Below, one piece after another: positions 730 to 40,059 of a stretch of 42,061 nucleotides of DNA. Position numbers and translations under genes: made by a program. This DNA comes from Verrucomicrobiota bacterium (GTDB taxonomy: Bacteria > Verrucomicrobiota > Verrucomicrobiia > JAWXBN01). The stretch spans positions 1-42,061 of the forward strand of contig JAWXBN010000100.1 of NCBI GenBank assembly GCA_034440155.1, given 5' to 3'. Positions within the stretch are counted from its first letter, which is position 1; each line of letters opens with the position of its first letter. The notes under the pieces were generated by a model that ran no database searches, had not been told where the DNA came from, and saw only the letters and a list, made by a program, of their open reading frames with translations.

Positions 730-2118
730 CTATACTGTCCGGGAGAATTTTGCAGCCTGGTTTTTCTGGAGGTATTCATCAAAGGGCATGCAGATATTAC
801 GGATGAGTAGGCGGCCCATCGGGGTGACGCGCAATTTGTCCTGATCCCAGTCGAGCAGACCATCCGCCCGCATCTCGCCAAGTGCATCAAAAGCTGGGGC
901 GAAATATTTCTGGAAATCGATCCCGAACTCCGCAGAGATCTGTGTAAAGGAAAGTTCATAATGGCACAGGAGATTCATGATGAGGGTATGCCTGAGGTAA
1001 TCCTCGTCAGTGAGTAAAATACCGCGTTGGGTAGCCATGCCTGTGAGAGCGATTTGTTTTTCGTAATCGTGGATATTCTTGAGGTTTTGTGAATAGGAGC
1101 GTCCGATCTGGCTGATGGATGACACCCCGAAAGCGAAGAGGTCACAGCCTTTGTGGGTGGTGTAACCCTGGAAATTCCGGTACAGTGTGCCCGCGTCCTG
1201 GGCTAGGCACATGGGATCATCGGGTTTAGCAAAATGATCCATGCCGATATAACGGTATCCGCCTTCTGTAAATTTACCAATCGCCATCCGGAGAATCTCA
1301 AGCTTTACCTCGGGCGAGGGGAGGGCCTCCGCTTTGATGGCCTTTTGGTGTTTAATCATCTCGGGCAGGTAAGCGAAGTTAAAGAGTGCAATACGGTCAG
1401 GGTCCAGGGTGAGGACTTTGTCCACAGTGGACTCGAAGCTGGAAACACTCTGGTAGGGTAGTCCGTAGATGAGGTCGACGGATACACTTTTAAAGCCACG
1501 TTCACGCCCTTCATCGATTACCCGTTTGGTCATGTCGTAGGGCTGGATACGGTTGACGGCCTTTTGGACTGCGGGGTCAAAGTCCTGGAGTCCCATCGAG
1601 AGTCGGTTAAATCCCGCTTTGCCCAGGGCGTCCATGTGTGCGGTGCTTGTTTCCCGGGGATCGACCTCGAGCCCGATTTCGGCATTTTCAGAAAAGTTAA
1701 AACGTTTCCGGATCCCTTCCCACAGGAAAGCAAGTTGCTCAGGGTCAAAAAAAGTGGGGGTACCACCTCCCCAGTGGAGCTGCTCGACCTTACGTCCCGG
1801 CGCAATTTGCGCGGCGATCGTATCCATTTCCTTAAAGAGCCAGTCGATATAAGGGACTGGGCGTTTACGGTCGGCGGTAAAGGTGACATTACACCCGCAG
1901 AAAAAGCAGACGGACTCGCAGAAGGGCAGGTGGAAATACAGGGAAAGGGGTTTGTCCGGATGGGCGGCATTTTCACGGGCGATTTCAGACCGGAGCTGGG
2001 TTTCGGTAAAGTCCGGGGTGAATTGGGGCGCAGTGGGATAACTGGTGTACCGGGGCCCGGCCTTATCGTATTTCGCGATGATGCCCGCATCTACGATGGG
2101 AATAACGGCTTTATTCAT
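730..2118 (-). CDS. hemN: Oxygen-independent coproporphyrinogen III oxidase
   Basis: HemN is a radical SAM enzyme that decarboxylates the two propionates of coproporphyrinogen III to give protoporphyrinogen IX without oxygen, in the cytoplasm. The 462-residue product has the usual family length. The [4Fe-4S]/SAM motif is CESVCFFCGC, with cysteines at residues 67, 71, 74 and 76 in the HemN-type CxxxCxxCxC spacing, preceded by YFHLPF. WGGGTPTF at about 116-123 is the SAM-binding glycine motif. I chose the ATG at 2116-2118 because the open frame continues upstream through hemE in another phase with no homology. The start overlaps the end of hemE by 8 bp, indicating translational coupling. Catalysing the step anaerobically suggests that the organism makes heme under low oxygen. 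Confidence 0.95.
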   Translation of the reverse strand: MNKAVIPIVDAGIIAKYDKAGPRYTSYPTAPQFTPDFTETQLRSEIARENAAHPDKPLSLYFHLPFCESVCFFCGCNVTFTADRKRPVPYIDWLFKEMDTIAAQIAPGRKVEQLHWGGGTPTFFDPEQLAFLWEGIRKRFNFSENAEIGLEVDPRETSTAHMDALGKAGFNRLSMGLQDFDPAVQKAVNRIQPYDMTKRVIDEGRERGFKSVSVDLIYGLPYQSVSSFESTVDKVLTLDPDRIALFNFAYLPEMIKHQKAIKAEALPSPEVKLEILRMAIGKFTEGGYRYIGMDHFAKPDDPMCLAQDAGTLYRNFQGYTTHKGCDLFAFGVSSISQIGRSYSQNLKNIHDYEKQIALTGMATQRGILLTDEDYLRHTLIMNLLCHYELSFTQISAEFGIDFQKYFAPAFDALGEMRADGLLDWDQDKLRVTPMGRLLIRNICMPFDEYLQKNQAAKFSRTV

Positions 2119-3157
2119 AACGCCAAGCTTTGATCGTGTCGATAAATGCCCGGGCATTTTCCACAGGGGTGTCAGGCAGGATCCCATGGCCGAGATTGGC
2201 GATGTAACCGGGGTTTTTGTGTTGCAAAAGCATTTTGCGCGTGCGGTCCTGGATAATCGACGGAGGACAATAAAGGATAGACGGATCGAGGTTACCTTGG
2301 ATCGCGACATGCATACCGGCATTCCTCCGGGCTTCCTGCAAGGGGGTGCGCCAATCGATAGAAAGGACATCGGCCCCGGTGTAGCTGAGGCTTTCGATCA
2401 GGTGGTGCGAGTTTTTGACATACAGAATGATGGGAACGGAGTGTTTTTGTTGAACCATGGAGATGGTTTTCTGGATCGAGCCCGCGACATATTGGTCAAA
2501 GTCACGGCGGCTGAGAATACCCGCCCAAGTGTCGAAAATCTGAACAGCACCTGCCCCGGCTTCGATCTGGGCGATGAGATGCTCGGCCACGGCCTCCGCG
2601 AGGCGGTCGAGGATCCGGGTGAATTCACTGGGTTGCGTGCGCATGAGCTTGCGGATGGCGAGGAATTCACGGCTGGTTTTCCCTTCGATAGCGTAAGCAG
2701 CTAGGGTAAAGGGGGCTCCGGCAAACCCGAGCACCGGTATATTACGGGGATTAAGTTCTTTCGTCACCATGCGGATGGATTCACCGACGTAAGAGAGGCT
2801 TTCAGCAATTTGCCCGTGGGCGAGGGGCACGAAGTCGGAAGCTTGGTTAATCGTGCGGGACAGGCGTGGGCCGGCGTGCTCCTCGAAAGTGACTTCCAGG
2901 CCGAGGGCCTCTAAGACCACGAGAATGTCCGAAAAGATGACGGCGGCGTCTACCCCGAGGATATCGACGGGCTGTAAGGTGACCTCCGCGGCGAGCTCAG
3001 GCGTACGGCAGAGGGTGAGGAAGTCCACTTTAGAACGGATTGCCCGGTATTCAGGCAGGTAACGTCCGGCTTGTCTCATCATCCAGACGGGGGGGCGCTC
3101 GACCTGCTCGATGCGGCATGCTTTTATAAAAAGAGAATTCTTAATCGATTTATTCAC
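2111..3157 (-). CDS. hemE: Uroporphyrinogen decarboxylase
   Basis: HemE removes four carboxyl groups from uroporphyrinogen III to form coproporphyrinogen III, the substrate used by the HemN encoded immediately downstream. The 348-residue product carries the family signature PPVWMMRQAGRYLPEYR at 22-38, the second signature GFAGAPFT at 144-151, the active-site-type aspartate in FSDIL (D77) and a late conserved GHG (H324). The start is GTG at 3157; the ATG one base upstream is followed directly by TGA. No clear Shine-Dalgarno is seen. Only 26 bp separate it from the divergent gene at 3184, so its promoter must overlap coding sequence or that small gap. Confidence 0.95.
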   Translation of the reverse strand: MNKSIKNSLFIKACRIEQVERPPVWMMRQAGRYLPEYRAIRSKVDFLTLCRTPELAAEVTLQPVDILGVDAAVIFSDILVVLEALGLEVTFEEHAGPRLSRTINQASDFVPLAHGQIAESLSYVGESIRMVTKELNPRNIPVLGFAGAPFTLAAYAIEGKTSREFLAIRKLMRTQPSEFTRILDRLAEAVAEHLIAQIEAGAGAVQIFDTWAGILSRRDFDQYVAGSIQKTISMVQQKHSVPIILYVKNSHHLIESLSYTGADVLSIDWRTPLQEARRNAGMHVAIQGNLDPSILYCPPSIIQDRTRKMLLQHKNPGYIANLGHGILPDTPVENARAFIDTIKAWRYE

Positions 3158-3183
3158 ATCACAACGTTATCATTTTCGGCTCA

Positions 3184-4461
3184 ATGGACAATCCACAAAT
3201 TCAAAAAGCCGTCATAAACCCTGACGGACGCCAATATCCCCTCTGGGCGGAGTCTTGGTGGGTGCAGGAATTCCTTGGCGGACATAAGGAGGTTTATCGC
3301 CGGGGATATGATTTCGCGCCCCCGGGATCAGAGGCGGGAGTCACGCCAGAAAAACTTTCGGAAGGCCGCAGTCTTACCCAGCTGCGCGAGCGGGTGGATG
3401 GATTAAGCGATCTCTTTACGAAAGAACGGGTGGAAGGTTTTGGACAATATGCCCGTGACCGCAAATTGCTCCAGGCGTATGGTTTATTTTATTTTCCCCA
3501 GACATTTATCCGGACCCGGATGGTTTTATCGGAAATAGTAAAATCCGGGAAATGGGTGGCGCCCACGGAGAAGATCTCGATCCTAGATTGTGGGGCGGGA
3601 ACGGGTGCGGCGGGGCTGTCAGCGGCCGATTTCCTTAATCAAACGGGTGCGCGGGATATTTTCCTCCACGCGATCGATGACTCCATCCAGAGTATGAAAC
3701 TCATCCAGGAATTCGTCAGCGGTACCCGCAAAGACTGGAGGGGGCCCTCAGTAAAGACGACGGTAGCGGATTTGTCTTTGCCGGAGCAATTTGCGCGGCA
3801 TGGGCGGCGGAAGTATGATGTGGTGATCGCTAGTTTTGTCATGAATGAGATTTATCAAGGTGGGGAACCTCAAAAGGCGCTGGAATGGTGCCGCAATTTG
3901 CTCCGGCTGGTATCCCCAAACGGGGTATTACTCCTGATGGAGCCAGCACTCAAAGAGTCTGCTGAAAGGATCGAATGGATCCGGGATCAATTTGCCCTGG
4001 AAGGTGTCGGAATATTAGGGCCCTGCCTGCACCGGGACAAGTGCCCGCTACTCTCCGAGGGGAAATACCACTGTCACGAAGTGAGGACATGGAAACCGCC
4101 CGAATCCCTCCAGCTCATTAACCGGAAGCTCAAACGTTCTGTCGAACAAACCCTGAAATTCAGCTTCTTAGCCCTGCAACCCGGGCAAATTGCGCGGGAA
4201 AAAGGGGGATTCGAACATTCTTTCCGGATGATTTCTCCTTGGGCACGGGGGAAAGGAAAATGGTTCACGACAGGATGTAATGATCAGGGGGTAAAGGCTA
4301 TTTACGAAATCCAATCGAGGGATTTACCTGAAAAACCTGAAAAGCAATTTGCTCGTATTGAGCGTGGAGACATTGTTTGCCTCACCGCAGAAGGGGTGGA
4401 GCGTAAAGGGGATATCTACAGGATTGAGAATATCGAAGCGATGAAGATCATCAAACCCTGA
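3184..4461 (+). CDS. Rsm22-like SAM-dependent methyltransferase
   Basis: This 425-residue protein resembles the Rsm22 family (mitochondrial small-subunit rRNA methyltransferase-like). Motif I of a class I methyltransferase is visible as ILDCGAGTGAAG at 133-144, with a later YDVVIASFVMNE strand at 211-222. Downstream lies a cysteine group typical of Rsm22 proteins, C281, C287 (in CPLL) and C297 (in CHE), which in the family binds a metal or iron-sulfur centre. A small beta-rich C-terminal region follows (about 330-425). The ribosome is the expected target, but bacterial members are poorly characterised, so the substrate is inference. The gene contains four copies of GCAAWTTGC, the densest cluster in the window. 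Confidence 0.75.
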   Translation: MDNPQIQKAVINPDGRQYPLWAESWWVQEFLGGHKEVYRRGYDFAPPGSEAGVTPEKLSEGRSLTQLRERVDGLSDLFTKERVEGFGQYARDRKLLQAYGLFYFPQTFIRTRMVLSEIVKSGKWVAPTEKISILDCGAGTGAAGLSAADFLNQTGARDIFLHAIDDSIQSMKLIQEFVSGTRKDWRGPSVKTTVADLSLPEQFARHGRRKYDVVIASFVMNEIYQGGEPQKALEWCRNLLRLVSPNGVLLLMEPALKESAERIEWIRDQFALEGVGILGPCLHRDKCPLLSEGKYHCHEVRTWKPPESLQLINRKLKRSVEQTLKFSFLALQPGQIAREKGGFEHSFRMISPWARGKGKWFTTGCNDQGVKAIYEIQSRDLPEKPEKQFARIERGDIVCLTAEGVERKGDIYRIENIEAMKIIKP

Positions 4462-4485
4462 GCAAAAGGTTCTGGCTCCAAAAAA

Positions 4486-10970: not shown

Positions 10971-12878
10971 ATGTCTTCAGAAAAGTTTATTTTTCGCGGT
11001 CGGTATTGGATTCCTCTCATCCCCCGGTGGGAAAGGGTAATAATTCTTCTGGTTATTGATGCCGCCTTGATATTTTTAGCGTTGAATTTTAGCTTTTTAG
11101 TCCGATTGGGATTTCCTATTCCGCAGACTTATTTAGATAATTTTTATGTTAGCCTGCTTCCCTTCTTCTTTATTGTGCGCTTAGGGGTATTTGCCTTGTT
11201 CGGTCTATATAATTGGAGTTTTCGTTATGCCAGTGTGCATGAACTCATGAGGGTGGTTTATGCCGTATTGACGGGTACAGTGATACTTTATGGGCTGCAG
11301 TTTTTTAAGGCATTCGATGTTTCGCGTATTGTCCTGCTTAATGAAGCAATGCTCTCCGTTGTGCTTGTCGGGGGCATCCGCTTTTCCGGGCGTATTTATC
11401 ATATTCTTTCCCGGCGTTCGAGTGAAAAGACTACAAAAACCATCATTGCAGGTCCCTACCAGCAGGTTGATCTCTACATCAGGTCGTTGATTACGAATCC
11501 AGAGGAAGAAACTTTTGCGGTGGCCGTTGTCGATCTTACTGGGAATAGGATCGGGCAGAAACTCCACGGGGTACGGGTCATCCATGAAAAAATGATTTCC
11601 CAACTTATCGCTGAGGGGAAAGCGAATACATTGATTCTGGTGGGGAATCTCACCGGAGAGGAAACCCGAGGGCTTATTGATGTCTGTCGGACTCACTCCA
11701 TAGCGTTCCGCCGGGCTGAAGTCGTTAGCGACCGAGATACGGGTCAACAGGTGAGTTTGAGGGATATTAATCCCGAAGATTTGCTGGCACGTGCTCCTGT
11801 GAATTTTGATATAGTGATGTTGAAAAGTCAGATCGCGGGGAAAAATGTTTTGGTCACGGGGGCTGCCGGTTCGATCGGTTCAGAGCTAGTACGACAAGTG
11901 GCCAGACTCCAGCCCGAGACATTGGTCTTGCTGGATTTTAATGAGAATGACCTCTATTTAATGGAGCGGGAGTGCGAGCAGCTTTACCCGGGGGTAAAGA
12001 TCGTGAGTGAATTTTGCGATTTGAAAGCAGAGGGACGGTTGCGCGAGGTATTTTCTCGACATAAACCTCACATTGTTTTTCACGCGGCAGCACACAAACA
12101 CGTTCCCATGCTGGAAAGATATCCCGCTGAGGCAGTCCTAAATAATGTTTCAGCATTTCAGATACTCGCGAGCATTTCGATCGAGATGAATGTGGAGCGT
12201 GTCGTCTATATTTCCACGGATAAGGCGGTGGATCCGGTGAATAACCTCGGATACAGCAAAAGGTTGGGGGAATTACTCGCTTTGGCCCATGCACGGCAGT
12301 CAAAAACGAAATTCTTGGGTGTCCGTTTTGGAAATGTCCTCGGTAGTAACGGCAGTGTTATCCATATATTTTTAAAACAAATTGCCCAAGGTGGCCCGGT
12401 GACAGTGACTCACCCGGAGATGACCCGCTTTTTTATGACGATCCGGGAGGCTGTTCAATTGGTGATCCAAGCAGGACTTTTGGGTTCTTCAGGGGAAATT
12501 TTTGTTCTGGATATGGGTAAACCGGTGAAACTGGTTGATTTTGCACGGGAACTGATCACGATTTCTGGGCATTTGCCCGACCAAGAAATAGCCATCAGTT
12601 TTATGGGATTACGTCCCGGTGAAAAAATGCATGAGGAACTCCATACCGATCATGAACCACTTGAAGCATTTTCTGAGCGGATATCGCGTATTTCCGGTAA
12701 GAGGTCTGTCGCGGAAGATTGTATTGAAATCGTAAACCGTCTCACGCAAATTGCCCGGTCGGCTCCCAGCCTTGAAGTCGCCCATGAGCTCCAGAAAGCG
12801 GTAAGTACCTGTGAAGGGATGCCTGTATCAGGCGTGCCGGTACAAGATGGAAAAACCAAACAACAAAATATCATTTGA
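10971..12878 (+). CDS. CapD/WbpM-type membrane nucleoside-diphosphate-sugar 4,6-dehydratase
   Basis: This 635-residue protein has the architecture of the WbpM/PglF/CapD group: four N-terminal membrane helices (about 22-45, 58-78, 93-112, 122-136), a first nucleotide-binding-like domain (about 150-270) and a C-terminal SDR domain with TGAAGSIGSE at 296-305, HAAAHKHVPM near 371-380 and STDKAVDP at 415-422. The family dehydrates and epimerises UDP-HexNAc to 4-keto-6-deoxy sugars for O-antigen, capsule or glycoprotein glycans. In place of Tyr-x-x-x-Lys the active region reads NLGYSKR, as expected for the long-form family where Tyr is replaced. It heads a three-gene operon. The exact sugar product is unknown. 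Confidence 0.9.
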   Translation: MSSEKFIFRGRYWIPLIPRWERVIILLVIDAALIFLALNFSFLVRLGFPIPQTYLDNFYVSLLPFFFIVRLGVFALFGLYNWSFRYASVHELMRVVYAVLTGTVILYGLQFFKAFDVSRIVLLNEAMLSVVLVGGIRFSGRIYHILSRRSSEKTTKTIIAGPYQQVDLYIRSLITNPEEETFAVAVVDLTGNRIGQKLHGVRVIHEKMISQLIAEGKANTLILVGNLTGEETRGLIDVCRTHSIAFRRAEVVSDRDTGQQVSLRDINPEDLLARAPVNFDIVMLKSQIAGKNVLVTGAAGSIGSELVRQVARLQPETLVLLDFNENDLYLMERECEQLYPGVKIVSEFCDLKAEGRLREVFSRHKPHIVFHAAAHKHVPMLERYPAEAVLNNVSAFQILASISIEMNVERVVYISTDKAVDPVNNLGYSKRLGELLALAHARQSKTKFLGVRFGNVLGSNGSVIHIFLKQIAQGGPVTVTHPEMTRFFMTIREAVQLVIQAGLLGSSGEIFVLDMGKPVKLVDFARELITISGHLPDQEIAISFMGLRPGEKMHEELHTDHEPLEAFSERISRISGKRSVAEDCIEIVNRLTQIARSAPSLEVAHELQKAVSTCEGMPVSGVPVQDGKTKQQNII

Positions 12879-14867: not shown

Positions 14868-15914
14868 GTGCAAATTGCTAAACTACTCATCCGCGATTTT
14901 CGCTGCCACGGGGAGTTCCTTGTGGACTTGTCCCCGGGGTTTAATATTTTCTTGGGGGCTAATGCTCAAGGTAAAACTTCTATTTTGGAGGCGGTACATT
15001 ACCTTTCGGTATTTAGCAGCTTTAGGACCTCAAAACCTTTGGAGTTGATCCGGCATGGCTGTCCATCGGCCTTGGTCGCCGCAAAACTGGGGGATCATTC
15101 CTTGCGTGTGTCATTTTCAAAGGAAGGACGCACGTGCTTGCTCGACCGGAAAAAAGTCGATGACCGTAGCGCATGGCGCAAATTGCTCCAGACAGTTCCA
15201 TTTACCACGGAGGATAATCAGATTGCCAAAGCTGGAGGAGTCGTGAGACGGAAATTTCTGGATTCTATCGTCGCTGGTCAACAACCCGGCCATGCGAAGG
15301 AGTTACTGGAGTTTAAGAAGCTCCTGCGTTCACGCAATTTGCTCTTAAAAAAGGGCGTTGATAAAATGAATCAAGAACTCTTTTCTACTATTACTGGCCA
15401 ATTTGCCCATGCATCAGGCAAAATTGCCCGGGCCCGCCAGGAATGGATGCGAAAACTCTCTCCTCTTGCGAGGCTGGCTCACCGGAAAATCTCTGACGGG
15501 AAGGAGGATTTGCAATTGGCTTATCTCGATACTGGTGAAGGAGATGTGGGGGCGAAATTTATACGGTTGTCCGGTGAGGAACGTCGTTTCCGCCAGACCC
15601 TTGCCGGGGCTCAACTCGATGATATGATTTTAACGCTGGATGGGCGTTCTGTTACCCAGTTTGCCAGTGAAGGCCAGCAGCGGAGTGTTGCTTTGGCGTT
15701 GCGGCTTGCCCAAGTGGATTTACTCAAGGGCTTACACGGTTCATGGCCAGTAATCCTTTTGGATGATGTCATGGGTGAGCTTGATGAGGGACGGCGTAAT
15801 CGCTTGATTGAGCTTGGAAATCAAGGGGCACAGGTTCTCCTGACTGCCACAGAAGAATCTTGGAGTGCTGCTGGAGTAGCTGACATCAAGAAATTCCAGA
15901 TTATCAAACAATAA
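14868..15914 (+). CDS. recF: DNA replication and repair protein RecF
   Basis: RecF is an SMC-like ATPase that loads RecA at single-strand gaps together with RecO and RecR. The 348-residue product contains Walker A GANAQGKT (30-37), the ABC signature SEGQQR (267-272) and Walker B LLDDVMGELD (297-306). The start is GTG at 14868; the N-terminus VQIAKLLIRDFRCH matches the family's opening beta strand. One GCAAWTTGC copy overlaps the start codon, and two more lie inside. The gene sits 54 bp after the polysaccharide operon and away from dnaA, dnaN and gyrB, its common neighbours near the origin in many bacteria. Confidence 0.93.
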   Translation: MQIAKLLIRDFRCHGEFLVDLSPGFNIFLGANAQGKTSILEAVHYLSVFSSFRTSKPLELIRHGCPSALVAAKLGDHSLRVSFSKEGRTCLLDRKKVDDRSAWRKLLQTVPFTTEDNQIAKAGGVVRRKFLDSIVAGQQPGHAKELLEFKKLLRSRNLLLKKGVDKMNQELFSTITGQFAHASGKIARARQEWMRKLSPLARLAHRKISDGKEDLQLAYLDTGEGDVGAKFIRLSGEERRFRQTLAGAQLDDMILTLDGRSVTQFASEGQQRSVALALRLAQVDLLKGLHGSWPVILLDDVMGELDEGRRNRLIELGNQGAQVLLTATEESWSAAGVADIKKFQIIKQ

Positions 15915-15938: not shown

Positions 15939-17288
15939 TTATTTTTTTGAGAGGGGATTTCGTGAGAGTGTTTCTGTCAGATAATTACCGCGGCGGTAAG
16001 CCTCGGCTAGAAGACTCACGGGATGCATGATTTTAGTTTCTTTACCGCATTTGCGCATCCCAGCACTGAGCTGGACATTACATCCGGGGTTCCCCGATGC
16101 GACAATTGTGGCTCCAGTGCTTTCTATATGGCGAAGTTTGCGCTCGAGCAGCTTGGCGGACATTTCTGGCTGGGTGATATTATAGACGCCCGCACTTCCG
16201 CAACACCAATTCGATTCCGGCAATTCCTTAAGTTCCAGTCCGGGAATACTTTTGAGCAATTTGCGCGGCTGGGCAGTGATTTTTTGTCCATGGCAAAGGT
16301 GGCAGGATTCGTGATAAGTCACCGGTCCATCGAGATCCAGGGAGGCGTGGGGGATACGTAAATCGATTTCGACCAACCATTCGCTGATGTCTTTGACTTT
16401 ACGCGACCATTCCTTGGCTTTTTCCGCATAGGCAGGATCGTCTTCGAGCAAATGGTCGTAATGCTTCAGGTGTGAGCCACACCCACCAGCATTTGTGATG
16501 ATCGCGTCAAGTTCACCAAGCGGAAAGGAATCGATATTTTTACGGGCAAGTTGTTTGGCGAGTTCCCATTCGCCATTATGGCCATGGAGCGAGCCGCAGC
16601 AATGTTGGTCCCGGGGAGTGATCACTTCACAATCATTAGCCAAGAGCACGTCTACGGTATCGCGGTTGATATCGGAGTAGATCAAGTCCTGGACACAACC
16701 GGTGAGCATGCCGACTTTATGACGTGTTTTCAGGGGGCGCTCATGCTCATGGATTAAATCATCAGAGAAGGAGGCTTTAATTTCAGGGGTGAGGGGTTCA
16801 AGTTCACGCAATTTGCGCGGGGCGAGGGCCATCAGTCCTGTTTTTCGGACAAAGGTTTGTAATCCGGTGACTTGGTAAATCCAGAGGAGGCGTCCTAAAA
16901 GCTTGAGTGACCATGGGCGCATGAAGAGGAATTTGACCGTCATGCTACGGACAAAATCACGGATAGGATTATCGAGGACTTTGGTGCGTTCGATCTCCGC
17001 GCGGGCCATCTCGAAAAGCTCGGTGTAATTCACCCCGGCCGGGCAGGCTGTCTGGCAGGCGAGGCATCCGAGGCAGAAATACATTTCATCGCCGAAAGCC
17101 TCATTGACATCCAGTCGGCCGTCGGCAACAGCGCGCATCAGGGAGATACGACCGCGCGGGCTGTGCTTTTCGAGCAGTGTCGCCTCATAAGTCGGACAAG
17201 TCGGCAGGCACATTCCGCAGTGCATACATTGTTGTACGACGGAATAGTCTAAGCCTTTGAGATAATTTTCACTGTGGGCGGCAGACAT
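15939..17288 (-). CDS. glcF: Glycolate oxidase iron-sulfur subunit
   Basis: GlcF passes electrons from the flavin subunit of glycolate dehydrogenase towards the quinone pool. The 449-residue product has two [4Fe-4S] ferredoxin motifs, C21-x2-C24-x2-C27-x3-C31-P and C72-x2-C75-x2-C78-x3-C82-P, followed by two CCG (heterodisulfide reductase-like) domains with CCGSLHG and WCCGSAG. Its start is 14 bp after glcD, so the two genes form an operon in the order glcD-glcF. No separate glcE was found here. A lactate or other 2-hydroxy-acid dehydrogenase role is a possible alternative for the pair. Confidence 0.92.
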   Translation of the reverse strand: MSAAHSENYLKGLDYSVVQQCMHCGMCLPTCPTYEATLLEKHSPRGRISLMRAVADGRLDVNEAFGDEMYFCLGCLACQTACPAGVNYTELFEMARAEIERTKVLDNPIRDFVRSMTVKFLFMRPWSLKLLGRLLWIYQVTGLQTFVRKTGLMALAPRKLRELEPLTPEIKASFSDDLIHEHERPLKTRHKVGMLTGCVQDLIYSDINRDTVDVLLANDCEVITPRDQHCCGSLHGHNGEWELAKQLARKNIDSFPLGELDAIITNAGGCGSHLKHYDHLLEDDPAYAEKAKEWSRKVKDISEWLVEIDLRIPHASLDLDGPVTYHESCHLCHGQKITAQPRKLLKSIPGLELKELPESNWCCGSAGVYNITQPEMSAKLLERKLRHIESTGATIVASGNPGCNVQLSAGMRKCGKETKIMHPVSLLAEAYRRGNYLTETLSRNPLSKK

Positions 17289-18679: not shown

Positions 18680-18889
18680 TGGGAGGATTGTAACAATCCA
18701 TGAAAAGGCAGCAAGCTTAGATATCTCTCTCAATATAGAGTTTAGTACCATTATTCACCTTTTTATCTTTAAGGACAGGGCAGCAATGAAAAAGTTAAAA
18801 TTTATAATCCATGGTGAAAATAGAAAATAAACCTTGAAGTATTGTTAAATTATGTGAACTTTATCCAAAAATTAACTGACACACATATT

Positions 18890-27474: not shown

Positions 27475-27574
27475 TGGGCACTAAACTAAACACCCCCGAG
27501 GTGATTGAAAAGACCTTATTAAAACAAAAATTCACTCTTGCCTTGATCGCTTGAGTCACGAATATAGTCCGTCC

Positions 27575-28753
27575 ATGGAAGAAATTTTACAGCCTGAGGT
27601 CGTGATCATCGGAGCGGGGGCTGCCGGTTTAATGTGTGCGATAGAAGCAGGCAAACGCGGGAGAAAAGTCCTTGTGCTGGAACACAACCAAAGTGCCGGC
27701 AAAAAAATCCTGATTTCTGGTGGAGGCCGGTGTAATTTCACCAATCTTAATGCCGGTCCGGGGAATTATCTCTCCCAAAATCCTGACTTTTGCCGTTCAG
27801 CCCTTGCCCGATATACACCCACTGACTTTCTCAAGCTGGTTGAGGCACATGGGATCGGCTACCATGAAAAAAAACTTGGCCAACAATTCTGTGATACGAG
27901 CGCACGGGAGATTCTGGATTTACTCCTGAGTGAATGCGCGGAAGCCGGGGTACGAGTGATCTATGGTGTCCATGTTGCGGCGATGAGCAAGGGAGATCGG
28001 TTTCGGGTGGATACTTCACGAGGAACGGTTTCTGCTGAAACCTGCGTAATCGCCTGTGGTGGCCTTTCCCTGCCGAAAATCGGTGCCACGGATTTTGCCT
28101 ACCGGATCGCCGAGCAATTTGGTCACCGGCTGGTCGAAACGAGGGCGGGACTTGTACCGCTGACTTTCCAAGGCCGGATGCGCTCGTTTTGTTCGGGTTT
28201 AAGCGGTGTATCCGTGGATGTGGAAGCAAATTGCGCAGGGAAAACCTTCCGGGAGAATCTTCTTTTTACCCACCGAGGATTAAGTGGCCCGTCGATTTTA
28301 CAAATCTCCTCCTTTTGGCAGACGGGGGAGGAACTTTCGATTGACCTGATGCCGGATCAAAATGCCGTGGATTTACTCGAAGATGCCAAAGCACGTGATA
28401 TCCGCATGGACAATTTACTTTCACAGAAACTGCCTTCCCGTTTTGCCGGACAATTTGCCTTGGAATTCGGTCCCTTGCGCCCGCTCAAACAGTATAACTC
28501 GAAGGAACGCGCACAAATTGCTGCGACCCTGAAAAAATGGCCTGTACGGCCTGATGGCTCAGAGGGTTACGTTACAGCCGAGGTAACCATTGGTGGAGTG
28601 GATACCCGTGATATCAACCAGAAAACCTTAGAGTCGCGCAAATTGTCCGGGCTCTTTTTTATCGGCGAATGCGTCGATGTCACCGGTTGGCTTGGTGGAT
28701 ATAATTTCCAGTGGGCATGGTCCAGTGGTTTTTGCGCAGGACAGGTGTGTTAA
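27575..28753 (+). CDS. BaiN/RdsA-family (HI0933-like) NAD(P)/FAD-dependent oxidoreductase
   Basis: This 392-residue flavoprotein opens with the dinucleotide motif VVIIGAGAAGLMCAIEAGKRG and the family hallmark KKILISGGGRCNFTN, and closes with GGVDTRDIN and FIGECVDVTGWLGGYNFQWAW, all typical of the HI0933 family. Characterised relatives include BaiN, implicated in bile acid dehydroxylation, but most members are of unknown substrate. The ATG at 27575 is preferred over an in-frame TTG at 27551. It is divergent from the CHASE2 gene (100 bp) and convergent with the next gene, so it is probably transcribed alone. Confidence 0.88.
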   Translation: MEEILQPEVVIIGAGAAGLMCAIEAGKRGRKVLVLEHNQSAGKKILISGGGRCNFTNLNAGPGNYLSQNPDFCRSALARYTPTDFLKLVEAHGIGYHEKKLGQQFCDTSAREILDLLLSECAEAGVRVIYGVHVAAMSKGDRFRVDTSRGTVSAETCVIACGGLSLPKIGATDFAYRIAEQFGHRLVETRAGLVPLTFQGRMRSFCSGLSGVSVDVEANCAGKTFRENLLFTHRGLSGPSILQISSFWQTGEELSIDLMPDQNAVDLLEDAKARDIRMDNLLSQKLPSRFAGQFALEFGPLRPLKQYNSKERAQIAATLKKWPVRPDGSEGYVTAEVTIGGVDTRDINQKTLESRKLSGLFFIGECVDVTGWLGGYNFQWAWSSGFCAGQVC

Positions 28754-28758
28754 ATTCA

Positions 28759-29544
28759 TTAATTTCCGGTAAACACCCATAAAACAGGAATTAAGAGGAC
28801 TACATCCGAGAGGACTCGCGCTAGAAGGGGTTTGGCGGGTGCAATTTGCTTTGCAGTTATCCAGAGGCAAAACGCGGTTATACCCACGAGGATAAAAAGA
28901 AAATGTGCCGGAAAAAGGAAGGCGCACACCAAAGAGATGGATAGGGGAATAAAACAAATCAGCCATTCGACAAAAGGATAGTGTTTCCTCTCCTCCCAAA
29001 GGGTAATGAACAGGCAATTTTCAAAACATAATAAAACAAATAACAGAAATGCCATGAGCGTTTGAATGTCGAGGGTAGTCCTCCAGATTAATGGAAAAAA
29101 GGCTGTGCCGCAGGCAAAAAGGACCGCAACTCCGGCCTCTTTTACGCCCAGTGCCGTTTGCGCCCAGCGTCGTTGATGAATGCCGATGAGATATGCTCCC
29201 ACGATCAAGGAGAAAACTACACCTCCGATGGCGCCTTTTGGACGCAACATCAGTAGACTTGTGACCGTGCAAATAGAAATAGCCAAGAGGCATAGAACGA
29301 TGATTAATTTCCGGTTGTATCCGGCAAAATCATGGCGTTGTTGCTGGGCAAAACCCTCGGACTCCTTGCTGTTATCTAGAAAGCGGTCCCCCAGGTAAAC
29401 AGCCCATGTCCCGGTGAAAAGAATGACATAATGGAACCATTGCAGACCGCTACTGAGCAAATTCCCCCAAATCATTTGCCATATCATCGCCACAACAGGA
29501 GCGTCGAGGCCAACGAAATGGATATATTTAATAAGCGGTTTCAA
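28759..29544 (-). CDS. UbiA-like polytopic membrane protein
   Basis: This 261-residue protein is almost wholly hydrophobic, with about seven to eight membrane helices. The sequence YLGDRFLDN at about 50-58 has an aspartate pair in the position and setting of the first Asp-rich prenyl-diphosphate site of UbiA transferases. A second acidic loop is much weaker (KEAG near 137), so prenyl transfer is only a possibility. No quinone or tetrapyrrole gene is adjacent. It converges closely (5 bp) on the BaiN-family gene. Verdict: an integral membrane protein, UbiA superfamily likely, function unknown. Confidence 0.6.
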   Translation of the reverse strand: MKPLIKYIHFVGLDAPVVAMIWQMIWGNLLSSGLQWFHYVILFTGTWAVYLGDRFLDNSKESEGFAQQQRHDFAGYNRKLIIVLCLLAISICTVTSLLMLRPKGAIGGVVFSLIVGAYLIGIHQRRWAQTALGVKEAGVAVLFACGTAFFPLIWRTTLDIQTLMAFLLFVLLCFENCLFITLWEERKHYPFVEWLICFIPLSISLVCAFLFPAHFLFILVGITAFCLWITAKQIAPAKPLLARVLSDVVLLIPVLWVFTGN

Positions 29545-29663: not shown

Positions 29664-29737
29664 GTTTGACTCTGGGACAGGCATGGTTTTACCTTGGATG
29701 TCCAACGGTTAAATCCCCTTAAGGAAAGGTTTTGGTT

Positions 29738-30700
29738 ATGGCAAATCTACTCGAGCAATTAAAACAATTCTCTATCGTAGTCGCTGATACAGGTGACTTT
29801 GAATCAATTAAAAGATATACCCCCCGTGATGCGACGACAAATCCCAGTTTGATTGCTAAGGCTGCGACGATGCCCGAATATCAGGATCTGGTGGCTAAAA
29901 CACTTGCTGATGTTAAACAAGAATGCTCCAGCAGCTCCGAGCAACTTTCCGTGGCGATTGATAAGCTTTTTGTGGCCTTTGGTGGCGAGATACTCAAAAT
30001 CGTTCCAAATCGTGTTTCTACGGAGGTGGACGCGCGCTTGAGTTTCGATGTGGTCGGTTCAGTCGCAAAAGCAAAAAGTCTCATAGGACGTTATGAAAAG
30101 ATGGGCATTCCCAAGGAACGTATCCTGATCAAACTTGCCAGCACTTGGGAAGGGATTGAAGCGGCCAAACAACTCAAAAATGACGGGATTCATTGTAATC
30201 TGACATTACTTTTTTCTTTTGCCCAAGCTGTCGCTTGTGCGGATGCGGGCGTGCAACTGATCTCCCCGTTTGTCGGACGTATTTTTGATTGGTATAAAAA
30301 ATCTACTGGTAAAGAATCCTATGCCTCCCACGAAGACCCCGGGGTGTTGTCTGTGACAAGGATTTATAATTATTACAAAAAGTACGGATACAAAACCGAA
30401 GTCATGGGGGCCTCCTTCCGCAATCTCGGGGAAATCACCGAGTTAGCCGGATGTGACCTGCTCACGATCAGTCCCCAGCTTTTAGAAGAACTCATGACCG
30501 CGCAGGGTACCTTGCCTCTCAAGCTCGACGCTTCCAAGGCTGAAGCAAATTGCACTGAGCCTAAAATCCCGATTGATGAAAAATCTTTCCGCTGGATGCT
30601 CAATGAAGATCAGATGGCTACCGAGAAACTCTCGGATGGTATCCGCGCTTTTACCGCCGACCTCTTAAAGTTAGAGAAATTCATCGCTTCAAAACTCTAA
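29738..30700 (+). CDS. tal: Transaldolase
   Basis: Transaldolase moves a dihydroxyacetone unit between sedoheptulose-7-phosphate and glyceraldehyde-3-phosphate in the non-oxidative pentose phosphate pathway. The 320-residue product is of the TalB type: D17 in [16 protein letters not shown] at 31-39, and the Schiff-base lysine K132 in [11 protein letters not shown], at the same numbers as the E. coli enzyme. An excellent Shine-Dalgarno (AAGGAAAGG at 29721-29729) decides for the ATG at 29738 rather than the in-frame codon two residues earlier. Pgi follows 66 bp later with a strong hairpin between, so the two are likely one transcript. Confidence 0.96.
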
Positions 30701-30754: not shown

Positions 30755-32407
<1,653 letters not shown>

Positions 32408-32471: not shown

Positions 32472-34052
32472 TTATAAATAATACCGCCAGTTAATATCGG
32501 GGAAGATGTTATCCCGCCATTCGAGGTTACTCAAGAAAGCTTCGTCGATACGGTTGTATTTGATTTGTTCAAAGAGTTTTGTGAAACGCAGGATATGGTC
32601 TTTGGTTCGTTTTGCGGCGTAGTGGGGGGCGGTTCCTGTCTTCATGAGGAAGGCCCAGTCGCTCGATTGGGCGAGGAGGAGTTCACGCGCAAGTTGCTTT
32701 AAGGCGCGTTCCATCTGCCCGTAGGCATTTGGATACATGCAAGCGGCCTCGGTCATGCGTTGGGCAGCCACATGGAGATGAGGGTATATCCAAGCATTTG
32801 GCCCATCGAGCCAGACTTCCCAATAACCTTTCGCTCCCCATGATGATGCGCTCGGGGTGGCGACTTGGTGGGTGTCGAATTGCTTTAGGTAATCAGCGGG
32901 GGTCGTGAGTTTATAGGTGCTTTGGTCAAAGACACTTTTACGGATAAAATAATTCAGGAATTCAGGCCCTTCGTACCACCAGTGACCATAGAGCTCCGCA
33001 TCGTAAGGGGCGATAATAATGGGAGGGGCACCCATGACGCCTTGCAGGTGTTCGACTTGTTTCTCTCGGTTGTGCATGAAGTTGCCAGCATGCATGGCTG
33101 CGTGTTCAAGGGCGACATCCGGATCGTAAGGTTGTTTATGATCGGTTTTACCGGTGATTTTGTAATATTTTAGTCCGGTAAATTTACGTTCACCTGTCGG
33201 GAGGATATACGGACGTATATAGTCATAATCCAGATCAAAACCAATATCCTTATAAAAATCACGGTAAACAGGGTCTCCAGGGTAACCTTCGATGGAACTC
33301 CAGACTTGTTTACTCGACTCGGTGTCGCGTCCAAATGCGGCGGGGCCGCTCCGCGTAAAGATGGGGGCAAATACCCCGTAACGGGGACGTGGATCAGCAA
33401 ACAGAACCCCATGGGTGTCAGTAAGGAAATAACGAATTTCAGCCTCTTGGAGGACTTTTTCTAGCCCAGGGAAGTAGGCGCATTCAGGCAGCCATATACC
33501 GCGGGGCGGCCGTCCAAAACATTGGGTATAATGATCGCGGGCAATCATGATCTGGGCCCGGACAGCTTCTGGATAATCTTGCATCAAGGGCAGGAATCCG
33601 TGGGTCGCGCCGCAAGTGATGATTTCTAGATTTCCTACATCTTGGAATTTTTTAAATGCCGTAATCAGGTTCCGGTTATATTGATCTTGGAATACATGGC
33701 GGATGCCCAACAGGCGTTTGTGGTAGAACCATGCCAGTTTATGGAAAGACGGATCATGCTTTGTCCGTTCGATTTCCTTCCAGCTTAACTCAAGGAGTTT
33801 ATTGACGTAACGAACATAACGATCCTGAAGAAGTGGATCCAAAAGCATGTTGGCCAATGGAGGCGTGATGGACATGGTCAGGCGGAAGTCCACCCCGTCG
33901 GTCAGCATTCCGTCCATCATCTGAACGAGCGGGACGTATGTTTCCGTAATCGCTTCGTATAACCAGTCTTCTTCGAGAAATTCTTCATGTTCAGGATGCC
34001 TGACAAACGGCAAATGTGCATGGAGAACGATTGAAACGTATCCTTTAGTCAT
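32472..34052 (-). CDS. GH57 1,4-alpha-glucan branching enzyme
   Basis: This 526-residue protein is of the archaeal/Thermotoga-type GH57 branching enzyme group, which introduces alpha-1,6 branches into glycogen-like glucans in the cytoplasm. GH57 motifs appear in order: HAHLPFV (11-17), CGATHGFLP (145-153), GIWLPECAYFP (183-193, with the nucleophile-type E188) and APYDAELYGHWW (346-357, with the acid/base-type D349). Activity type is inferred from motif similarity; a related alpha-amylase or 4-alpha-glucanotransferase cannot be fully excluded. It follows the DUF4912 gene by 79 bp on the same strand. Confidence 0.9.
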   Translation of the reverse strand: MTKGYVSIVLHAHLPFVRHPEHEEFLEEDWLYEAITETYVPLVQMMDGMLTDGVDFRLTMSITPPLANMLLDPLLQDRYVRYVNKLLELSWKEIERTKHDPSFHKLAWFYHKRLLGIRHVFQDQYNRNLITAFKKFQDVGNLEIITCGATHGFLPLMQDYPEAVRAQIMIARDHYTQCFGRPPRGIWLPECAYFPGLEKVLQEAEIRYFLTDTHGVLFADPRPRYGVFAPIFTRSGPAAFGRDTESSKQVWSSIEGYPGDPVYRDFYKDIGFDLDYDYIRPYILPTGERKFTGLKYYKITGKTDHKQPYDPDVALEHAAMHAGNFMHNREKQVEHLQGVMGAPPIIIAPYDAELYGHWWYEGPEFLNYFIRKSVFDQSTYKLTTPADYLKQFDTHQVATPSASSWGAKGYWEVWLDGPNAWIYPHLHVAAQRMTEAACMYPNAYGQMERALKQLARELLLAQSSDWAFLMKTGTAPHYAAKRTKDHILRFTKLFEQIKYNRIDEAFLSNLEWRDNIFPDINWRYYL

Positions 34053-35948: not shown

Positions 35949-37967
35949 ATGAATTTTTTGAAGCTAACAGTTGTAGCATTTTGCAGTTTTCTACTGACAA
36001 GTCCTTTGGCTGCATTAACGATTAATTCAAATAATGCCACTTATTCCCGTTTTTCGGGGGGATTTCCTTCAGCTCCAATAGATAACCCAAGTTTTTTTGC
36101 AGCAGATTATGACCTGAGCGGGATCGGTTGGAATAATGCGAGTGCAGGACAAAGTTTTGCACTGATTAGTCCTCAGCATGCGGTTTTTGCGACACATTTT
36201 TTGCCGGGAATGGGTACGACTATCAAATTTCTCAATGATGATAGCGTATTAGTAAGCAGGACAGTCGCCTCACAAACCCAAATTGCCGGGACGGATCTCT
36301 CCCTTTTGACATTCTCTTCCGCATTCACTGAGGCAGATAAAGTAAAGATTAATCCTGTCCTTTCCATGCCGACTTTGGGTGATTATTTGGGGCAAACAGT
36401 CTGGATGTATGGGCAAACAGCTCAAATGGGCAGCTCGAATTCTGTTTATACATTTCAAATGATATCGAATATTTCGGGACCTACATTGATGTCTATTTAT
36501 CTGCGGGATTATACGACTCCGGGTCAGGCAGTCGGTCAAGTAGGTGACTCTGGAAGTCCTTCTTTTATTCCATGGGACGGGGTTTTAAGCCTTATTGGAA
36601 CTCATTCGGGTATAGATGTAAATGTCGTTATTTCTCCCGGGGTGACCAACGATCTTACCGCCGATGCGTTTATTCCGGCCTATATTTCACAATTGAATGC
36701 AGCCATGGGCAGTTACCGTGTTTCCACCATTGATGTTATTCCATCAGGAAATTACACAACACCTGGAACGGGTGATTTGTCGAATTCGGCCGCCCTCTAT
36801 ATTACAAACGGGGCCACATTACTGAATAATTCCGGGACAACTAACGGGGCAGGTTTATATAGTGATAAGAATCGTAAGGCGGTTGTGACGGGAGCTGGTT
36901 CCCTCTGGTCAAATACGGGGACATTGACAGTGGGGGTGGTGAATAATAGTAACTCGCTGCAAGTCCTTAATAACGGAGTGGTATATGCCACAAATTTTAT
37001 CGTTGGGGGTACGGCTTCATCTACCGGGAACACAGTGAGAGTCAATGGGGGGTTGTTAATTATCACAAATGCCGGAGGTACTTCCACCTATGACCTCAGG
37101 CGGGGGATCCATCAACAATTTGCAGGAACCACCCTTACTGATAATTTTTATATGACGAATTCCCAAGCGACTCTTGTGATAACAGGGGGAGCTTTTACGG
37201 TTAAAAATAGTTCAGCCATTTCAAATTATTCCACCCTCCTTTTATCAGGAGGTGTTTTATCAGGTGGGGCAACATCCATGTCCGTACAGAGTAATGGCGT
37301 TTTGATCGTTAATAGCACCTTAAATGCAGCAGGAGGCCTGCAAATTGCTCAGGGGGGATTACTAGAGGGCCATGGGAGTATTAATGGAGTGGTATCCGGT
37401 TCGGGGTTAGTCAGCCCTGGAAATAGCCCGGGTATTCTCACTGTCAGTCAGGTAGATCCATCGGCTGGTTTGGACTTTGCATTTGAATTCACAGCCTTGG
37501 GAGCCCCCGATTTTTCAAGTCCTGCTGCTTCTACCAATGACTTAATGAGGATTACAAATATGACAGCTTTCACCTCATCATTAAATTCAGGCAATTCAAT
37601 TGATGTATATTTGAACTTGGCTAGTTTTTCTACTGGTACATATTTAGGAGGGTTTTATTTGGATAGCGGGCTTGATATTGTTTCTTCAATCTCCGCGGCG
37701 ACACTCAAATATTGGGTTTATGATGCTGTGGGGACAAATTCATTTAACGGATTCACGTATAATGCGCTCAACCTCCCGCTATATTCTATCTCACTTTCTT
37801 CTAGTTTACTGCCGGCCGATTTTGGATCCGGCATAATCAATGGTTCAATATTAGGATTTAATATTCAGCCTGTACCGGAACCAAAGACGACTATACTCTT
37901 TCTGGTTCTCATTTCAGCAGTGCTCTCGCTGTCATGGTTGTTCAAAAGACCTACAAAATGCGAGTGA
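35949..37967 (+). CDS. Secreted trypsin-like protein with beta-rich passenger and PEP-CTERM anchor
   Basis: A signal peptide (1-22, ending LAA) leads into a trypsin-like domain. H83 lies in AVFATHF, D116 in GTDLSLLTF and S201 in VGDSGSPSF, followed by SLIGTHSG, the usual order and spacing for a His-Asp-Ser triad. Residues about 265-500 are Asn/Gly/Ser/Thr-rich short repeats ending in GSGLVSPGNSPGILTV, the style of autotransporter/beta-helix passengers. The C-terminus has PVPEP at 641-645, a membrane helix and a basic KRPTK end: a PEP-CTERM signal for exosortase sorting to the envelope or outside. No beta-barrel is present. It is flanked by AT-rich DNA and has no operon partner. Proteolytic activity is inferred. 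Confidence 0.82.
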   Translation: MNFLKLTVVAFCSFLLTSPLAALTINSNNATYSRFSGGFPSAPIDNPSFFAADYDLSGIGWNNASAGQSFALISPQHAVFATHFLPGMGTTIKFLNDDSVLVSRTVASQTQIAGTDLSLLTFSSAFTEADKVKINPVLSMPTLGDYLGQTVWMYGQTAQMGSSNSVYTFQMISNISGPTLMSIYLRDYTTPGQAVGQVGDSGSPSFIPWDGVLSLIGTHSGIDVNVVISPGVTNDLTADAFIPAYISQLNAAMGSYRVSTIDVIPSGNYTTPGTGDLSNSAALYITNGATLLNNSGTTNGAGLYSDKNRKAVVTGAGSLWSNTGTLTVGVVNNSNSLQVLNNGVVYATNFIVGGTASSTGNTVRVNGGLLIITNAGGTSTYDLRRGIHQQFAGTTLTDNFYMTNSQATLVITGGAFTVKNSSAISNYSTLLLSGGVLSGGATSMSVQSNGVLIVNSTLNAAGGLQIAQGGLLEGHGSINGVVSGSGLVSPGNSPGILTVSQVDPSAGLDFAFEFTALGAPDFSSPAASTNDLMRITNMTAFTSSLNSGNSIDVYLNLASFSTGTYLGGFYLDSGLDIVSSISAATLKYWVYDAVGTNSFNGFTYNALNLPLYSISLSSSLLPADFGSGIINGSILGFNIQPVPEPKTTILFLVLISAVLSLSWLFKRPTKCE

Positions 37968-38272
37968 TTTTGGAGCGTTTAAAGAGAAACCAGCCAGTTA
38001 GTCGGAATTTATGTCTCATTTTTGGTTTTAATGCCACCGCCTTTCAGGTGGTTACTCAAATCTTTGAAATTCGGGTTCGAGCTTATGGACGGCTTTCAGC
38101 CGGAGCATAATCATTCCACCATCTTTCCAGACGGTGTATTTTGAATTTTATCGGACAAATATCTATTTTTTATGATGGATTAAAAAATGTCACTGTTTTG
38201 TCAAAAAACTGACACATAATTGCCATATCTATCAGTCTATATCGCTCCGAACCTTAACCAAAAGAACCTTTT
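37968..38272. other. Intergenic region, 305 bp
   Basis: No gene is evident. A weak hairpin, CCACC with GGTGG near 38036-38053, lies in the first part, and a near-perfect 27-bp inverted repeat (38188-38214) is found 59 bp before the next start. No promoter pair is convincing, although TTGTCA at 38198-38203 could serve as a -35 element inside the repeat. Confidence 0.6.
38188..38214. promoter_or_regulatory. Inverted repeat, candidate operator
   Basis: TGTCACTGTTTT and AAAAAACTGACA are inverted copies that match at 10 of 12 positions around GTC. The site lies upstream of the small exported protein gene at 38273. It could bind a dimeric regulator or form a hairpin, but its position about 60 bp before the start codon favours an operator overlapping the promoter. 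Confidence 0.4.
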
Positions 38273-38575
38273 ATGATTAAAAAAATACTCGCATCCCTCC
38301 TCTTAACAATATCCTTCTGCCTGATAGCCGATGCGGGGGATGGCTCGTACAGCACAACCGGCACCTTTACTGGTGAAATAACCGCTATTGAGGAATCCCG
38401 TGACTCTATCACTGTAGTGGCTGATGATGGTCAGGTGCGCATGTTTGCCGCCAGTCATTCTCGTAAAAATAACCTAAGTGTGGGGGATAAGATCCGTGTT
38501 GGTTATGTCAACCAATATGAGTGGCCTTTACCTGTTCGTTCTTTGACCGTCCTGCGCGGTGGGTACGGGAAATAA
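38273..38575 (+). CDS. Small exported protein, OB-like
   Basis: This 100-residue protein has a signal peptide (1-21, ending IADA). The mature part has short strands, TGTFTGEITAIEESRDSITV, then DDGQVRMFAAS, then NLSVGDKIRVGYV, with the alternation expected of a small OB- or SH3-like barrel. No cysteine or lipobox is present after the signal, so it should be free in the periplasm or secreted. It is a single gene between an inverted repeat and a terminator. The function is unknown. Confidence 0.75.
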   Translation: MIKKILASLLLTISFCLIADAGDGSYSTTGTFTGEITAIEESRDSITVVADDGQVRMFAASHSRKNNLSVGDKIRVGYVNQYEWPLPVRSLTVLRGGYGK

Positions 38576-38605
38576 CCCCCCCCAGAGTTGTCAGTTTACT
38601 CCAGT

Positions 38606-38641
38606 ACCACCGATTTAACGGGTGGTGCTTTTTATTTTTTT
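38606..38641 (+). terminator. Terminator after the small exported protein
   Basis: ACCACC (38606-38611) pairs with GGTGGT (38621-38626), with a possible G-C extension toward the loop, and is followed by GC and a T-rich run to 38641. It is plausible as an intrinsic terminator, although the stem is short. Confidence 0.75.
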
Positions 38642-38763
38642 GTAGCAAGACAGCCTGAAATATCATTCGCAGGAATATGAAGCAAAATATTCTGATTAGT
38701 GGGACGTGATGAAGTAATTCAGCAGGCAGCATACTTCTCTACTTTTGATTGCAGAATAAATAA

Positions 38764-38784
38764 ACCCCATTTAGTGTTTGGGGT
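38764..38784 (+). promoter_or_regulatory. Hairpin abutting the start codon of the binding-protein gene
   Basis: ACCCCA (38764-38769) can pair with TGGGGT (38779-38784), whose last base adjoins the GTG start. Folding would hide the ribosome-binding region, so translation may be structure-controlled. The stem is only 6 bp. Confidence 0.35.
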
Positions 38785-40059
38785 GTGAAAAAGCTGGATG
38801 TCATTAGCTTACTATTAGCTACGTTATTAATTGTTGCCTGTTCCCAAGACTCAGAGCCGTTGCCACGTGCCCGCGATATTAATGTGCTCATCTTTGCAAA
38901 TAGCCGTGAGGAAGCCTTTATCCGGGCGCAAATTGAGGATTTTCAAAGATTTAACTGGAATGCCAAAGTCCGGCTGCTTGTTCGCCCCCCCGATTTCTCC
39001 GCCTTGGCCGAATTAGAAAGGATGGAATCAAAAGGGCAACCGGTTGATTTATTGTATTTCGAGTCACGAGAGTTATTCCCTTTGGTTGCCAAGGCAAAGC
39101 TGGCCCAAATAGGAAAGGATCATGATATCAGGAAAATTTCCGAAGGGATTTTACCCGAGTTGAATAAAAAATTAGCGATTAAGAACGAGCAATATAGTCT
39201 CCCTTTTGCTTGGAGTACTGCTGTACTTGTGTTCAATAAGAAGATATTTGACGGAATAGGAATATCCTACCCGTCCGAATATTGGGGATGGCCCGACGTA
39301 TTGGAGTCCGCCCAAGCGGCGGCAATGGATACTGATCGTGATGGGAAAATAGACCAATATGGGATGGAGATGCAGTCACGGGCGGATGAAGTAATGATGA
39401 TGTTTTGGCAATTTGAGGGAGAAACACGGACGGATGCTAATTCCCTGACGACATTATTAAACCCTGAAAATAGATTGATCCTAGACCAAACAATCGATTT
39501 TTACAGTGATCTCCAAAAGGGAATGAATGTTGCCACGATCAATTCAAAAGGACTCAAAGGAGGTTTATTTGAGTCTGGGCGGGCTGCTGTTACATTTGGT
39601 CAATGGAGCGATGTAGAGTCTCTTCTGCAGTCAAATCGTAGAAGCTTGTGGCAAATTGCACCTGCCCCAAGGGGCCGCGATAAGGCTACGGTTCTAGAAG
39701 CGAAGCTCTTTGCTGTAGCGCAGGATTCCGTCCATAAAACAGAGGCGATAGCTCTTGCTCAATTCTTCTTACGTTCAGAGGCTCAAAAACTTTTGTTAGA
39801 AGAAGGAGTAGGGCTGCCCGTTTTGACTGCGTTGAATGAAAGAACACTCACAGAGGGAAAAGAAATGGGAATAGATATGCAGTCCTTTTATTTGCAGCTG
39901 CCTGATGCGCAAATTGCACCCCAAAATATTGTGATGAAAGAAATCCAGAAAGTGCTTGATGACCGTCTTTCATCAGGCCACAAAATCGTGACATCACCTG
40001 AAGATAAGCCTTCATTCAGGAGCCGTTTGAAACTCCGCCTGGAATCAGAGAAAAAGTGA
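38785..40059 (+). CDS. ABC-transporter extracellular solute-binding lipoprotein (sugar type)
   Basis: A lipoprotein signal (LLIVAC, lipidated C19) precedes a family 1 type solute-binding fold of 424 residues in total. Typical segments are VLIFANSREEAFIRAQIEDF (first lobe), LPFAWSTAVLVFNKKIFDGIG, a stretch around SEYWGWPDVLESAQAA, and GRAAVTFGQWSD in the second lobe; TDRDGKIDQYG is a calcium-loop-like segment often present in maltose or sugar-binding members. The start is GTG at 38785. No permease or ATPase gene is adjacent on this strand, so the transporter lies elsewhere or the protein works alone. Sugar binding is inference. Confidence 0.85.
   Translation: MKKLDVISLLLATLLIVACSQDSEPLPRARDINVLIFANSREEAFIRAQIEDFQRFNWNAKVRLLVRPPDFSALAELERMESKGQPVDLLYFESRELFPLVAKAKLAQIGKDHDIRKISEGILPELNKKLAIKNEQYSLPFAWSTAVLVFNKKIFDGIGISYPSEYWGWPDVLESAQAAAMDTDRDGKIDQYGMEMQSRADEVMMMFWQFEGETRTDANSLTTLLNPENRLILDQTIDFYSDLQKGMNVATINSKGLKGGLFESGRAAVTFGQWSDVESLLQSNRRSLWQIAPAPRGRDKATVLEAKLFAVAQDSVHKTEAIALAQFFLRSEAQKLLLEEGVGLPVLTALNERTLTEGKEMGIDMQSFYLQLPDAQIAPQNIVMKEIQKVLDDRLSSGHKIVTSPEDKPSFRSRLKLRLESEKK

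Follow-up and report, generated by a model that had tools for sequence, protein, structure and literature searches.

Among the highly iterated palindromes (HIPs) of cyanobacteria, HIP1 (GCGATCGC) has been known since the 1990s, and its function is still unsettled. The binding sites of MatP (matS), SlmA and Noc are also palindromic, are read by dimeric proteins and lie inside as well as between genes, with only some tens of them in a genome, restricted to certain regions. A published survey placed HIP densities between 500 and 2,500 per Mb and reported that each genome with a HIP also encodes a methyltransferase to match, and the HIP1 model presented there ties the repeat to DNA methylation (PMC4390886). 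The uptake signal sequences (USS), which are spaced at about 1,000 bp, are created by point mutation, and both new DNA and constrained coding sequence contain fewer of them than expected (PMC7811141); none of the known uptake signals is a palindrome (PMC1939737). This study concerns a nine-base palindrome, GCAAWTTGC, which is repeated throughout a 42-kb contig (C100, JAWXBN010000100.1; 42,061 nucleotides, all of which is referred to here as the window) of a Verrucomicrobiota bacterium whose assembly (GCA_034440155.1) comprises 2.76 Mb in 132 contigs and is 97% complete.

A first-pass annotation of the window, made from its sequence without database searches, had proposed that the word is strongly over-represented and that 9-mers should be counted genome-wide against a Markov model. 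Such a count lies far above expectation. GCAAWTTGC occurs 1,522 times in the whole assembly (551/Mb) and the reversed pattern seven times, and in a 1.23-Mb sample GCAAWTTGC was the top word, with an observed-to-expected ratio (O/E) of 50 under an order-2 and 44 under an order-4 Markov model. Direct reading of sequence covered 1.80 Mb (65% of the genome) of this one assembly, sampled as stretches, in which 990 copies centred on A or T (W) and 90 centred on C or G (S) were found, the median for palindromic words of the same 4+1+4 form being 22. The S-centred forms are enriched approximately eightfold genome-wide and keep the same flanks.

This abundance is specific to the lineage, because the other genomes of the class and phylum that were compared (141 class members and 388 phylum genomes, about 460 in all, related at class or phylum level only) each hold at most roughly 50 GCAAWTTGC per Mb. 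Judged by the pattern of relatives, the class is likely Verrucomicrobiae. Samples from 20 class relatives, each of up to 20 kb and two of them fully masked, contained no HIP-like palindrome of comparable strength. The contigs of relatives that were reached through the isomerase gene contained no locus with raised word density, a scan of relatives using a 550-aa AsmA-like protein returned no match, and the 22 matches among virus contigs carrying the consensus had one to three words each, which is the chance level. The word itself was in no paper found by a literature search limited to open-licence papers, and the sequence appears to be previously undescribed. A separate entry in the k-mer table of the 1.23-Mb sample, TCGCCCTACA, with approximately 42 copies on both strands (47 times expectation), is probably part of a dispersed repeat.

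The nine bases are the centre of a longer symmetric element. A logo built from 672 sites, all turned so that the central base is A, is symmetric to about ±9 or 10, with G in 62% of the sites at −6 and C in 66% at +6, and gives the full element as a dyad-symmetric CCnGMGCAAWTTGCKCnGG of 17-21 bp. The first-pass annotation had seen an NCGG tail on at least six copies in the window and suspected a longer consensus; six such tails are present, and they represent one side of this genome-wide extension. The left and right flanks do not differ significantly at ±6 to ±10, and beyond ±10 nothing is conserved. With a 21-bp weight matrix and a threshold of >11 bits, 1,105 sites were recovered in 1.23 Mb as against 48 with column-permuted matrices, which extrapolates to approximately 2,400 sites in the genome, or nearly one per kb.

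Across 989 sites, complementary pairs at ±5 and ±6 occurred at expectation and the scores of the two half-flanks were practically uncorrelated (0.018). The two flanks thus vary independently, which fits duplex DNA read by a dimeric protein and not a hairpin; for the sites as a whole, a hairpin or cruciform is ruled out by this lack of covariation. The exception is ±9, where complementarity was around 3 sd above expectation, perhaps owing to sites within terminators. Near-miss cores retain the flanks, suggesting that many of them are degenerate or decayed real sites. The tolerance of the core is uneven: G>A at position 1 is common (207 seen, 32 expected), while most changes at position 4 are rare, including A>G (12 seen), although this is a synonymous transition in the main frame.

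The element leaves a strong mark on codons and proteins. In-frame copies number 579 compared with 55 in synonymous-codon shuffles, two reading frames dominating (254 and 269, against 55). Where G|Q-[I/F]-A is encoded with WTT, CAA and CAG are used at 414:5, compared with 175:75 if a residue other than Ala stands third; for [K/N]-L between GC and C, after a W-ending codon, TTG makes up 358 of the 403 leucine codons, compared with about a tenth elsewhere. Expressed as log-odds shifts, these biases amount to 1.9-4.8 per base, values that, on the assumption of equilibrium, would correspond to scaled coefficients of selection or drive. Among 5,363 tripeptides, QIA (450 seen, 107 expected) and QFA (238 seen, 71 expected) rank first and second, and 414 of these 688 tripeptides are encoded by the word itself. 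The site in the glucose-6-phosphate isomerase gene uses Ser309, a residue seen in none of 73 homologues. RecF shows similar departures, which at 35-40% identity prove little; orthologues could be compared for gain or loss of the word only at that level of identity.

Clustering of the sites is moderate genome-wide (variance/mean 1.3-1.5). Neighbouring sites at distances of 50-400 bp are somewhat more frequent than random placement would give, and the excess at 50-100 bp partly persists after positions are permuted within genes (56 seen, 40 expected). No helical phasing was found among neighbouring sites.

The interpretation tentatively favoured here is that GCAAWTTGC is the core of a lineage-specific, highly iterated palindrome that does not depend on methylation and is bound by a single homodimeric protein, with chromosome maintenance as its most likely role. 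Under this proposal each site would be bound as double-stranded DNA by one putative sequence-specific homodimer, without methylation. The sites would arise by point mutation, and their density of nearly one per kb would be kept either by selection on binding or by a drive that binding causes. The role may be an intracellular one in nucleoid organisation, segregation, or recombination and repair. Chromosome maintenance is placed first on account of the symmetry of the site, which would be expected of a dimer and sets the site apart from every characterised uptake signal. Several points weigh against this proposal. The binding protein is putative; two genes of the HU/IHF family are present in the genome, neither of them linked to the site. 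No architectural protein is known to have some 2,000 sites that are under strong selection and lie mostly within genes. The distribution of the sites fits an uptake signal as well, and a single genome without a close relative does not allow selection to be separated from biased drive.

It is also possible, and we give this second place, that the element is a palindrome serving as a signal for DNA uptake. An uptake sequence and a chromosome-organising or repair site had both been named as candidates by the first-pass annotation, and the evidence does not decide between them. Incoming DNA would be bound at the site by the competence machinery, and biased uptake together with recombination would act as a molecular drive that lets the word build up wherever it is tolerated and needs no benefit from each site; the large tripeptide effect is more easily obtained through drive than through approximately 2,000 separate benefits. 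The spacing of the matrix sites resembles that of USS (PMC7811141). Sites are slightly sparser in open reading frames (ORFs), which were defined by length only (0.54/kb), than elsewhere (0.64/kb), and several of those in convergent gaps are embedded in terminator-like stems. A contig of 18.4 kb (C27, L109) that carries a type III-B (Cmr) locus of clustered regularly interspaced short palindromic repeats (CRISPR), a NERD-domain helicase and a WYL regulator contains zero GCAAWTTGC. It was probably acquired recently, and its lack of the word is as expected if recently acquired DNA has none. The genome also has a comEC gene, and no specific receptor was identified, no search having been aimed at one; ComEC, however, is widespread and not diagnostic of competence. 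Furthermore, the known uptake signals are non-palindromic (PMC1939737), whereas the core here is a perfect palindrome around W and the site is symmetric to ±9.

A HIP1-type palindrome read by a DNA methyltransferase, or through some other base modification, in support of mismatch repair or self-recognition is unlikely. The first-pass annotation had listed a HIP1-like methylated palindrome among its candidates, and the density (551/Mb, O/E 44-50) and the palindrome-keeping extensions are indeed those of the cyanobacterial HIPs, with deviations skewed to the first and last base in HIP1 and to position 1 here (PMC4390886). HIP1 itself has no copy in the window. The candidate loses its ground on the enzyme, as no cognate methyltransferase was found. 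Profiles PF01555 (N6_N4_Mtase), PF00145 (DNA_methylase), PF02086 (MethyltransfD12) and PF02384 (N6_Mtase) had no match in the genome and did match control genomes, and the sole, weak match to PF07669 (Eco57I) is PrmC, as judged by its length, its NPPY motif and a neighbour resembling prfA. The pairing of such palindromes with methyltransferases (PMC4390886) therefore fails here. A motif scan of the 1.80 Mb revealed no credible DNA methyltransferase, only proteins resembling RNA or protein methyltransferases; a search with the MT-A70 profile was uninformative, the control being silent. An MT-A70 enzyme, DNA phosphorothioation or a gene in the part of the genome missing from the assembly might yet supply a modification. 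Apart from the palindrome, a genome that seems to be without DNA methyltransferases of the usual families is unusual for a bacterium.

It is very unlikely that the element serves a transcription regulator as its operator or a mobile element as its target. Its size is typical of palindromic operators, but the sites are mostly intragenic and are sparse in divergent gaps (0.38/kb), being densest in short convergent gaps (1.46/kb), which argues against a promoter element, and nothing is conserved past ±10. The notion that the word stems from codon usage, a preferred peptide or biased mutation deserves hardly any credence: coding copies are in the majority and two frames prevail, but the word is ten times above synonymous shuffles, the reversed forms of the QIA and QFA tripeptides are at expectation, non-coding density equals or exceeds coding density and symmetric flanks reach ±9, so that the shuffle, tripeptide and codon tests contradict such an origin and bear out the earlier statement that no protein motif explains the word.

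In the window, GCAAWTTGC is the most extreme 9-mer, with 22 exact copies, 11 centred on A and 11 on T (Table 1), compared with a mean of 0.68 and a maximum of three per shuffle in dinucleotide shuffles. The first-pass annotation had counted 21 copies (11 T, 10 A) where about 0.3 were expected; the enrichment stands, and the figures are amended by one overlooked A-centred copy and the higher expectation. One-base neighbours at the core positions are rare (at most four per class), and three C- or G-centred variants are also present. As had been noted, the copies occur in genes of unrelated function: all 22 lie within long ORFs, with codon phases 0, 1 and 2 each represented. Their reported presence on both strands is uninformative, the A form on one strand being the T form on the other. 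The uneven spread described earlier is mild, since the longest copy-free stretch, 8.4 kb, is no more than chance allows (P=0.15) and a group of seven copies inside 2.5 kb has P=0.018. The overlap with the start of recF was likewise seen again, the last base of the assigned GTG being shared with the copy at 14870.

Table 1. Copies of GCAAWTTGC and of its S-centred variants in the window, with the ORFs that contain them.
Sequence	Position	Gene or ORF (strand)	Codon phase	Remark
GCAATTTGC	1802..1810	hemN-like ORF 730-2370(-)	2	strongest window site, matrix score 23.6
GCAATTTGC	2805..2813	uroporphyrinogen decarboxylase ORF 2111-3157(-)	2	
GCAAATTGC	3461..3469	Rsm22-like methyltransferase ORF 3184-4461(+)	1	
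GCAATTTGC	3786..3794	Rsm22-like methyltransferase ORF 3184-4461(+)	2	
GCAATTTGC	3893..3901	Rsm22-like methyltransferase ORF 3184-4461(+)	1	
GCAAATTGC	4185..4193	Rsm22-like methyltransferase ORF 3184-4461(+)	2	
GCAATTTGC	4344..4352	Rsm22-like methyltransferase ORF 3184-4461(+)	2	
GCAAATTGC	12746..12754	polysaccharide-biosynthesis epimerase ORF 10971-12878(+)	2	
GCAAATTGC	14870..14878	recF	2	start codon overlap (GTG at 14868)
GCAAATTGC	15178..15186	recF	1	
GCAATTTGC	15334..15342	recF	1	
GCAATTTGC	16256..16264	glcF-like ORF 15939-17288(-)	1	
GCAATTTGC	16808..16816	glcF-like ORF 15939-17288(-)	1	
GCAAATTGC	17548..17556	glcD-like ORF 17303-18751(-)	1	
GCAATTTGC	20485..20493	AsmA-like ORF 19559-21925(-)	1	
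GCAAATTGC	28226..28234	FAD-binding oxidase ORF 27551-28753(+)	0	
GCAATTTGC	28841..28849	ORF 28759-29544(-)	2	
GCAAATTGC	30545..30553	transaldolase ORF 29732-30700(+)	0	
GCAATTTGC	31692..31700	glucose-6-phosphate isomerase ORF 30767-32407(+)	1	
GCAAATTGC	37340..37348	ORF 35949-37967(+)	2	with T5SS/PEP-CTERM repeats
GCAAATTGC	39651..39659	solute-binding-protein ORF 38785-40059(+)	2	
GCAAATTGC	39909..39917	solute-binding-protein ORF 38785-40059(+)	2	
GCAAGTTGC	1730..1738			S-centred variant
GCAACTTGC	32125..32133			S-centred variant
GCAAGTTGC	32689..32697			S-centred variant

The densest gene of the window is the ORF at 3184-4461, which encodes a methyltransferase-like protein of 425 aa related to Rsm22 and holds five copies of the word. 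The repeats encoded at 35949-37967 are of the T5SS/PEP-CTERM-associated kind (NCBIfam TIGR04393), which hints at a repeat protein that is exported or resembles an autotransporter. A DUF4912 protein (34132-35439) adjoins a GH57 alpha-glucan branching enzyme (32472-34052).

More broadly, the element may be a methylation-independent highly iterated palindrome outside the cyanobacteria, that is, a symmetric, dimer-read signal for DNA uptake or genome maintenance that is strong enough to rewrite the proteome; we consider this possible, at somewhat less than even odds. If true, HIP-type words would need no methyltransferase, and a common explanation for HIP1 and the uptake signals would be offered. 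An equally striking palindrome in a genome where no DNA methyltransferase was found provides a counter-example in which repeat and methylation are uncoupled. The precise 21-bp consensus can be used as bait for the cognate protein, and the codon and tripeptide biases allow the pull of a DNA signal on codon choice and protein sequence to be measured cleanly.

Compared with the sites of MatP (matS), SlmA and Noc, the element is similarly palindromic and both intragenic and intergenic, its reading by a dimer being only inferred; those sites number tens and are regional, whereas the element occurs in thousands over nearly all of the contigs sampled. With the USS of Pasteurellaceae and the DNA uptake sequences (DUS) of Neisseriaceae it shares the number per genome, the spacing near 1 kb, a strict core with degenerate flanks, a possible scarcity in new DNA, occurrence in terminators and between convergent genes, and an effect on coding sequence (PMC7811141, PMC2397512, PMC1939737). 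Unlike those non-palindromic signals, the GCAAWTTGC site is symmetric throughout. The cyanobacterial HIP1 and alternate HIPs (Elhai, 2015; PMC4390886) resemble it in their hundreds to thousands of copies per Mb in genes of all functions, in their symmetric extensions and in the bias of their one-base deviations. The element differs from them in its phylum, its odd length with a W centre and its longer footprint of 17-21 bp, and, with a core of only 44% GC, it stands apart from the GC-rich alternate HIPs.

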